IMG/VR virus record: IMGVR_UViG_3300021963_000328
Coordinates: 1-37,303 of that record
DNA: 37,303 nt
Source of the DNA: a virus
Reading direction: 5' to 3' (one strand)
Shown here: positions 211-3,429 of the stretch, one piece after another
Layout of the letters: the number at the start of each line of letters is the position of its first letter
Position numbering within the stretch: position 1 is the stretch's first letter
The notes under the pieces: generated by a model
Databases searched by the model: none
What the model saw: only the letters and a program-made list of their open reading frames with translations
Told to the model about the DNA's origin: nothing
Made by a program: the position numbers and the translations under genes

Positions 211-240
211 ACCGGGGCGACAGTTAAACAAAAGGAGCAA

Positions 241-522
241 ATGACCATGACTAATATTCGGCAATATGCGGACGTTCGCCAGACCCCACCCGCGACGATC
301 AATTATGAAATGCAGCCCTATGGCGCGCTCGTTTTAGGCCAGCTTACATGGGGTCAGTATAATGGGTTCCCTACGCTCTCGGGTGTTGTGGTGGAAGGCG
401 CTGAGACGGCGCGTCTATTCCAGCACGCAACGTCGCGCAGCGTGATAGGTGAACGACGCACGATCTACGCTATAGAGCAGCATGAAATCGACAGCGGCAA
501 AGCAATACGCATCGCAATGTAA
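241..522 (+). CDS. Early hypothetical protein (93 aa)
   Basis: First gene of the rightward early region in this version of the genome. I start it at ATG 241, directly after AAAGGAGCAA, because the longer open frame from 121 would run through the promoter repeats. No motif is recognised. The protein is small and soluble with no membrane segment. In the alternative module at 36889-37303 this position is taken by an unrelated 58-aa gene, so the locus is exchangeable and the product is probably an accessory early protein, perhaps a host-takeover factor. That role is inference from position only. Confidence 0.75.
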   Translation: MTMTNIRQYADVRQTPPATINYEMQPYGALVLGQLTWGQYNGFPTLSGVVVEGAETARLFQHATSRSVIGERRTIYAIEQHEIDSGKAIRIAM

Positions 523-979: not shown

Positions 980-1378
980 ATGACAATGACACCTATCAAG
1001 CAAACCATCACAGTCGAATTGAACGCATATGCCCGCAACGAAACGCGACCCTTTGACATAGACGCGACCGTCATTGGTGACATCGCGGTCCACAAGCCCG
1101 TCCATTGGTTTACCAAGGATGGCGACCCCTCGCAGGGCAAGGGATGGACAGTCTCGCACCTGCCTAGCGGAAAGATTGTCGCATCGGCTGTGCCGCAACG
1201 TCTACAGTCGCGCGGCACGATCAAGGCCAGCCAAAAGGATTTAATCGCATTTGCGACCGCATGGCAGAAACAATGCCCGGCTTTCTTTGACGCCCTACGC
1301 AATGCCGGCAAGGATGGCTTGGCGAACATCCCCAAGGACATGACACGGGCCGCTCTAGACGTTGCCCGCGCCCTCTAA
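980..1378 (+). CDS. Early hypothetical protein (132 aa)
   Basis: Start at ATG 980 after AAGGAGCAA, the same start signal used by neighbouring early genes (ATGACNATG form). The protein has a beta-rich N-terminal half and a helical, Lys/Ala-rich C-terminal half. No catalytic motif or family is recognised. The stop codon at 1376-1378 is only four bases from the predicted hammerhead ribozyme, so if the ribozyme works, the mRNA would be cut 25 bases after this gene, separating its message from the following genes. Confidence 0.8.
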   Translation: MTMTPIKQTITVELNAYARNETRPFDIDATVIGDIAVHKPVHWFTKDGDPSQGKGWTVSHLPSGKIVASAVPQRLQSRGTIKASQKDLIAFATAWQKQCPAFFDALRNAGKDGLANIPKDMTRAALDVARAL

Positions 1379-1380
1379 CA

Positions 1381-1440
1381 ATCGAAACGGGCGCAAGCCC
1401 GTCCGATAGCATGGCCAACTATCGCTGATGAGATAGGCCA
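1381..1440 (+). ncRNA. Type II hammerhead ribozyme
   Basis: All conserved core positions are present in the permuted type II order. They are C1383, GAA 1384-1386, A1387 paired with U1402, stem III CGGGC/GCCCG (1388-1392/1397-1401) with a GCAA loop, cleavage-site C1403, stem I CGATAG/CTATCG (1404-1409/1419-1424) with a 9-nt loop, then CUGAUGA at 1425-1431. Stem II is short: GAU 1432-1434 with AUC 1381-1383. GGCC in loop I (1413-1416) could pair with GGCC at 1436-1439, a possible tertiary contact. Predicted cleavage lies between 1403 and 1404, about 40 nt before a ribosome binding site. An alternative hairpin (CTATC 1419-1423 with GATAG 1432-1436, TGGC 1412-1415 with GCCA 1437-1440) would exclude the active fold. 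Core match is seen; activity is inferred. Confidence 0.85.
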
Positions 1441-1454
1441 AAGGAGCAAATGAA

Positions 1455-1742
1455 ATGGCACGCATGGATAAATTGAGCACGTACCGCACGACAATCGCAC
1501 AGGCAGGCGATTTAATCGCAGTCACCTATCATTCTACCCAAATCGTCGCATTTGATCGGCACAATGTAAGCTTGCGCACTGGCGGCTGGGATAGCGTTAC
1601 AACACGACGCAAGATGAACCAAGCGGCCAATCAATTTGGGCTTGGGTATAGCGTATACCGCGACAAAGGCGCGTCATATGTCCGCACACCCGCCGGGGCG
1701 GTTTTACCGCTTGAAGATAATATGACGTTTTCACGCATTTAA
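1455..1742 (+). CDS. Conserved phage early protein (95 aa)
   Basis: The ATG at 1455 follows AAAGGAGCAAATGAA; the ATG at 1450 is out of frame. The protein has the pattern LSTYRTTIAQAG...VTYHSTQIV...RRKMNQAA..FGLGYSVY, which I recognise as a recurring small phage protein of unknown function in which the HSTQIV and RKMNQAA segments are most conserved. No enzyme motif is visible. Its leader carries the predicted hammerhead ribozyme, so its expression may depend on RNA cleavage or refolding just before the ribosome binding site. Confidence 0.88.
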   Translation: MARMDKLSTYRTTIAQAGDLIAVTYHSTQIVAFDRHNVSLRTGGWDSVTTRRKMNQAANQFGLGYSVYRDKGASYVRTPAGAVLPLEDNMTFSRI

Positions 1743-3086: not shown

Positions 3087-3429
3087 AAAAGAAATCATCC
3101 ACTGGTGGGAGACATCTGTCCTGCCGCCGGGCGGAACCGATGACTTAAACAAGTTTTCTGACGATACCGCCATCCTATACGATGCGTTGCACGTTATGCC
3201 GGATGGGTCGCCTGTTGGGCTTGTGTATAAAAATTTGAGTAAGGCTTTGAAGGCATTCGAACGATATGGCTTCACCACTGACGAAATTTTAAGGATGCAC
3301 CCACGGCATGACGAAATCGTAGACAACAACCTGAAAATCAAAAGCGTCGATGACGACTATACGTTCACAGGGTGGCGAAACGCTGTTCCGGGGCGTGATA
3401 CTTTAGTGATTATGGGGGATGGGAAATGA
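3079..3429 (+). CDS. Early hypothetical protein (116 aa)
   Basis: ATG 3079 follows AAGGAGCCAAGCAA and overlaps the end of the DnaA-like gene. The protein has no recognised domain. It is mixed alpha/beta, with WW near the N-terminus and a C-terminal GRDTLVIMGDGK. The base composition of its central part is more AT-rich than its neighbours, which may mark separate acquisition. It ends in an ATGA overlap with the next gene. Confidence 0.78.
   Translation: MTKKEIIHWWETSVLPPGGTDDLNKFSDDTAILYDALHVMPDGSPVGLVYKNLSKALKAFERYGFTTDEILRMHPRHDEIVDNNLKIKSVDDDYTFTGWRNAVPGRDTLVIMGDGK

Follow-up and report, generated by a model that had tools for sequence, protein, structure and literature searches.

The stretch of viral DNA analysed here (IMG/VR record IMGVR_UViG_3300021963_000328, positions 1 to 37,303; hereafter the window) carries at positions 1381-1440 of the + strand what its sequence identifies as a type II hammerhead ribozyme, stabilised by a pseudoknot and predicted to cleave itself. 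We hold with moderate confidence that the ribozyme cuts a polycistronic phage transcript into units that are independently stable and replaceable. This reading builds on the structure, covariation, placement and retention described below, and presumes co-transcription of the adjacent genes, cleavage in the cell and altered stability of the products. The single copy in the window is ordinary by itself, and the interest lies in its population context.

Architecture and class identity

On the + strand of window 1376-1457, the stop codon TAA (1376-1378) of a 132-aa ORF (980-1378) is followed by CA, the ribozyme (1381-1440), a Shine-Dalgarno (SD) sequence AAGGAG (1441-1446) and the ATG at 1455 of a 95-aa gene (1455-1742). 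Stem II is formed by AUC (1381-1383) and GAU (1432-1434), which covary in relatives. The core elements GAA (1384-1386) and CUGAUGA (1425-1431, the CUGANGA of the consensus) were read directly and recovered in the alignment to RF02276 (Rfam Hammerhead_II), and the core columns are invariant across the aligned relatives. Stem III (1387-1402) comprises six pairs (1387-1392/1397-1402), including A1387-U1402 at the A15.1-U16.1 place, closed by a GCAA loop (1393-1396); this hairpin alone is predicted to fold with -11.5 kcal/mol. By the hammerhead consensus C1403 occupies the H17 position (C17) and the predicted cut lies between 1403 and 1404; among the matches listed, 202 of the 203 relatives also have a C here. 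The stem I hairpin (1404-1424) follows with six pairs between CGAUAG (1404-1409) and CUAUCG (1419-1424) and the loop CAUGGCCAA. Stems I and III are thus closed by loops while stem II is open, the permuted order of type II, and the motif scanner returned type II only.

The first-pass annotation had every core nucleotide in its right position, as direct reading confirmed, but overlooked a pseudoknot of five Watson-Crick pairs between UGGCC in loop I (1412-1416) and GGCCA in the 3' tail (1436-1440), a feature present in the majority of type II hammerheads and supported by covariation in relatives. The pseudoknot ends at 1440 and the SD sequence starts at 1441, with no base in between. The predicted cut falls 25 nt past the stop codon, 51 nt ahead of the ATG and 37 nt ahead of the SD sequence, the last a little short of the approximately 40 nt given earlier.

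The search with RF02276 that the first-pass annotation had proposed yielded an end-to-end match at 1380-1442 with 36.6 bits (E = 1.3e-7 when the genome record was searched, 1.2e-6 for an 86-base segment). The match stands, but it lies 0.4 bit below the gathering cut-off of 37 bits, which is a curation threshold and not a biochemical property. Many members of the arrays described below also score 29-37 bits with full cores. RF02276 was listed by the 86-base scan but neither by a whole-window cmscan nor by a 401-base cmscan at E<=10, probably an effect of search filters. Chance origin of the motif is excluded, because it appeared in none of 300 dinucleotide shuffles of the window, even when looser stems were allowed; CTGATGA alone occurred about four times per shuffle. 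Neither the RF02276 search nor the motif scanner found a second hammerhead of any type in the window.

A degenerate pattern search recovered at least 119 stretches in viral contigs and 23 in genomes representing 84,980 species of bacteria and archaea, and nearly all pattern matches, among those listed, form full type II hammerheads. Counting others in the same stretches, there are at least 203 distinct type II hammerheads in at least 109 loci. In 42 aligned sequences of one length class, 97.6% of the pair cells were paired, against 72.0% after shuffling, and two-sided changes were seen in 17 of the 20 pairs, including all five of the pseudoknot. Among the matches listed, a pseudoknot of at least 4 bp was present in 180 of 203 relatives, and loop I paired with the tail over a mean of 4.84 positions, compared with 3.19 when partners were shuffled; where the search pattern left the tail free, the values were 4.58 and 2.65. 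The same loci held 221 type II hammerheads against two of type I and three of type III among the matches listed, albeit the search pattern itself accounts for 131 of the 221, so that the other 90 make the fairer comparison. The type II identity, the cleavage site at C1403 and the placement between genes claimed at first pass are well supported by the model match, the shuffles and this covariation, which across the class, with the nearest copies in contigs L169 and L168/L170, indicates a fold maintained by selection.

Speaking against activity, energy minimisation of the window copy gives another nested structure, which lies 10 kcal/mol lower than the hammerhead computed without its pseudoknot, a gap exceeded in only 6.5% of relatives among the matches listed. 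The five G+C-rich pseudoknot pairs, uncounted in this energy, should offset part of the gap. A conserved fold switch was dropped as an explanation, because the copy in contig L002 folds as a hammerhead without the alternative structure. The competing stable fold, together with the score just below the cut-off and the plain hairpins found at the same place in other neighbourhoods of the 95-aa gene, could point to an inactive relic, or to a hairpin that acts only as a terminator or an RNA-stabilising stem. We regard this as very unlikely, as all core nucleotides are intact and their columns invariant in relatives, neither hairpin is backed by a T run or called as a terminator, and in L169 stem III has been replaced by another fully paired stem.

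A fixed slot between genes, and arrays

The relatives occupy nearly the same slot as the window copy. Among the matches listed, the upstream stop codon lies -5 to +4 nt from the 5' edge of the ribozyme in 153 of 189 cases (6.6% in the control), and in 81 of 200 stem II begins on the final base of a TAG. Within the next 80 nt, 132 of the 186 listed cases have an SD sequence plus start codon, against 12 of 186 (6%) on the opposite strand and 154 of 829 (19%) at shifted places; gene calls in this analysis followed simple open-frame plus SD rules. The median distances from stop to cut and from cut to start, again among the matches listed, are 24 nt and 57 nt (25 and 51 nt in the window).

So tight a placement could also serve translation, in that initiation at the downstream gene would be toggled by folding or cleavage of the RNA, or by a ribosome sitting at the stop codon upstream. 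The SD sequence adjoins the pseudoknot in the window and follows it at a median of 6 nt in the listed relatives, a ribosome terminating at a stop codon that overlaps or touches the 5' edge would cover the core, and the window copy has an alternative fold to switch to. Nevertheless, the gap between pseudoknot and SD sequence varies from 0 to 21 nt (5th to 95th percentile) among the listed relatives, the alternative fold is not common to all of them, as the L002 copy demonstrates, and a plain pseudoknot would not need a core conserved for catalysis. Translation control is thus an unlikely principal role.

Several loci carry more than one ribozyme. In all 38 multi-copy loci among the matches listed the copies are co-oriented, with up to 12 type II copies in one operon. 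In locus L108 (4198-9068, - strand) twelve diverged type II hammerheads alternate with small genes, filling nearly every junction of one operon, and L028 holds eight type II copies. Copies in one array are on average only 61-67% alike with the fold kept, so the arrays are not fresh duplications.

The array in bacterial contig L144 (Marinithermofilum abyssi NZ_BMHQ01000020.1, 7053-7911) is of another kind. Here seven type II hammerheads, each scoring above the Rfam cut-off, stand in tandem every 122-146 nt directly after a 113-aa ORF, separated by G/T-rich, apparently non-coding spacers. Unlike the phage joints, it has no evident genes between hammerheads, and cutting would release RNAs of ~130 nt. 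Hammerhead cleavage leaves a 5'-hydroxyl and a cyclic phosphate, and such ends are substrates of RtcB-type ligases; with these tandem non-coding units, this gives some ground for a role in forming RNA circles or spliced products. For the window we consider such a role highly improbable, since with one hammerhead only there is no unit to excise, and Perreault et al. found none when they searched for circles and spliced products (PMC3088659).

Neighbouring genes, sister phages and shared cassettes

The gene set of the window is that of a P22-like podovirus, with portal, coat, head closure, terminase and tail spike along with a primase, DNA polymerase A and a SNF2-type helicase. By terminase, the closest named records are ctNMl277 (75%) and DSL-LC05 (68%), and scanning both revealed no type II hammerheads. 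That these records lack the element implies that phages of this type can do without it. When named phages were searched with the junction and with the 95-aa gene, at the nucleotide and the protein level, nothing matched. The 132-aa gene has no relatives in the viral contigs; the 95-aa gene, which matches PF23790 (Kyano_Gp96) and phrog_554, has relatives in 15 viral contigs and was rightly called conserved at first pass. The early-operon setting given to the junction at first pass is a presumption.

The ribozyme is not tied to this gene, close relatives of which lack it. The first-pass annotation had raised the case of related phages that retain the flanking genes and lack the core; for the 95-aa gene such cases occur, since in 13 of its 15 relatives no type II hammerhead was matched at E<=0.1. 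In L002, whose protein is 85% identical to the 95-aa protein, the type II hammerhead sits one gene earlier. A gene-specific riboregulator of the 95-aa gene was dropped as a candidate because most relatives of the gene lack the ribozyme.

Other structures occupy some of these junctions. In L002 two gene junctions in a row (2941-2980 and 3287-3325) are taken up by one and the same GC-rich hairpin (CAACTATCGCCGCGCGGCAATCCCGCCGCGCGGCAC), which occupies the slot of the window's ribozyme. L007 and L009 share a conserved, structured-looking leader, CCACCGGA-hairpin-CGAGGATGGCGCTAGTGCCAATTAGAGGG, ~70 nt before the homologue of the 95-aa gene, with no Rfam match at the gathering threshold.

The most informative relative is a sister phage, L169 (IMGVR_UViG_3300033521_000046), which is syntenic with the window. 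L167/L169 share 95% of terminase residues with the window, are 87-92% identical to it in nucleotide sequence across the terminase-portal region, and carry unrelated 201-aa and 113-aa genes in place of the 132-aa and 95-aa genes. In L169 the ribozyme stays between the replaced genes: stem I, core, pseudoknot and SD linker are 93% identical over window 1397-1453, whereas stem III differs from that of the window yet is fully paired, and stem II has two pairs. Its retention after the neighbours were swapped suggests that the ribozyme may act as a cut mark splitting one long message. L168/L170 are 95% identical to the window over 1382-1460, the ribozyme together with the ribosome binding site (RBS), and show no other similarity to it in the stretches compared; no terminase was found in these contigs (15 and 59 kb).

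These two cases raise the alternative that the ribozyme persists chiefly because it serves as a recombination joint for the exchange of early genes between phages. The boundary from stop codon through ribozyme to RBS would be self-sufficient, and cleavage would either make any gene combination expressible or be incidental. Besides L169, in which both adjacent genes are unrelated, and the isolated identity in L168/L170, ribozyme pairs at least 94% alike on different contigs bear on this possibility. Homology was lost in one or both flanks in 17 of 26 such pairs among the matches listed (nucleotide and protein comparison; the pairs are not independent), against 2 of 66 gene-internal control pieces compared at a looser threshold (>=85%) and at the nucleotide level only. 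Similarity of 94% between independent hammerheads did not arise by chance in any of 79,800 simulated pairs. Nevertheless, when whole intergenic stretches at least 85% alike were compared, the flanks switched in 2 of 15 pairs of ribozyme junctions and in 1 of 16 for junctions without a ribozyme. This junction control weakens the candidacy of the ribozymes as special recombination sites; since it gave no clear excess over ordinary gene-boundary mosaicism and the pairs are not independent, a special recombination role, and the gene-joint reading with it, is put forward here as a hypothesis. A joint made of DNA, moreover, needs no compensatory restoration of RNA base pairs. As the main reason for which the ribozyme is kept, recombination is therefore unlikely, if somewhat less so than translation control.

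A further observation concerns the ribozymes internally. At L168:7098-7164 stands a second hammerhead that agrees letter for letter with the window's over its left half (TAACAATCGAAACGGGCGCAAGCCCGTC, stop codon through stem III), and the right half of the window's hammerhead matches the other L168 copy. This arrangement suggests exchange inside ribozymes.

Probable splitting of the message and relation to known hammerheads

In the message-splitting reading, one transcript would span two phage genes of the same direction with the ribozyme as their joint, in which the stem III and stem I hairpins and the 3-bp stem II would form and the loop I/tail pseudoknot would lock the fold. After self-cleavage behind C1403, the upstream message would end with hairpin III and a 2',3'-cyclic phosphate, 25 nt past its stop codon, and the downstream message would begin with a 5'-hydroxyl and the stem I/pseudoknot structure, 51 nt ahead of its start codon. 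As the type II order is the only one of the three permutations with a hairpin directly at both sides of the cut, one 55-nt element could supply a decay-resistant 3' end as well as a decay-resistant 5' end. RNA with a 5'-hydroxyl is a poor substrate for the RNase E route that depends on a 5'-monophosphate end (PMC4191395), so that this end, together with the terminal hairpins, would yield individually stable messages with no need for a promoter or terminator. In E. coli, 5'-hydroxyl ends made by hammerheads seem to escape phosphorylation, a statement resting partly on unpublished data of the cited authors (PMC4191395). Applying E. coli decay rules to the host of the window phage is an assumption. 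A sequence scan found neither promoter-like nor terminator-like sites on the + strand around the junction (1378-1455). An intrinsic terminator was rejected there, no G+C-rich hairpin with a U run being found, and a local promoter failed the same scan.

What hammerheads do in bacteria and phages has been called an open question (PMC6155905). Type II hammerheads with a pseudoknot flanking phage genes were described by Perreault et al. in 2011, and transcript processing was already proposed as their role (PMC3088659). According to the same report, breaking the type II pseudoknot drastically cuts activity and restored pairs restore it, tandem phage hammerheads cut their native polycistronic RNA in vitro, and the triple hammerhead of Agrobacterium tumefaciens also cuts in E. 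coli (PMC3088659). With the class of RF02276 as presented there, the window copy shares the core, the permuted order, the short stem II, the loop I-tail pseudoknot, the placement between phage genes and the proposed transcript processing. It differs in being the one copy in its genome record, in its 3-bp stem II, in scoring 0.4 bit under the cut-off and, from most relatives, in its stronger competing fold. The A. tumefaciens prophage triple likewise lies between co-directional phage genes, but its three copies surround ardA, whereas the single window copy separates genes of unknown function (PMC3088659). New in the present analysis are the fixed stop/SD slot with its co-oriented arrays, the retention of the ribozyme during a gene swap and the shared cassette; in the text of Perreault et al. 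available to us we found neither the slot nor such persistence across gene swaps described (PMC3088659).

It is attractive to speculate, albeit only tentatively, that type II hammerheads are portable phage gene joints, each a 55-nt cassette reaching from a stop codon to the next RBS and itself moving between otherwise unrelated phages. If so, each gene would form an RNA unit whose own ends are protected, and phages could trade genes at the joint with no need to rewire expression. With the fixed slot, arrays that reach 12 copies and the pair of sister phages, the message-splitting idea becomes directly testable, and a second testable idea is added, namely that ribozymes mark the joints of gene exchange. 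An SD linker, GGAGCAAATGA, recurs nearly identically before most genes of the cluster (window 227-264, 528-565, 966-1003, 1441-1453 and 1747-1784), and is possibly a second shared joint sequence.
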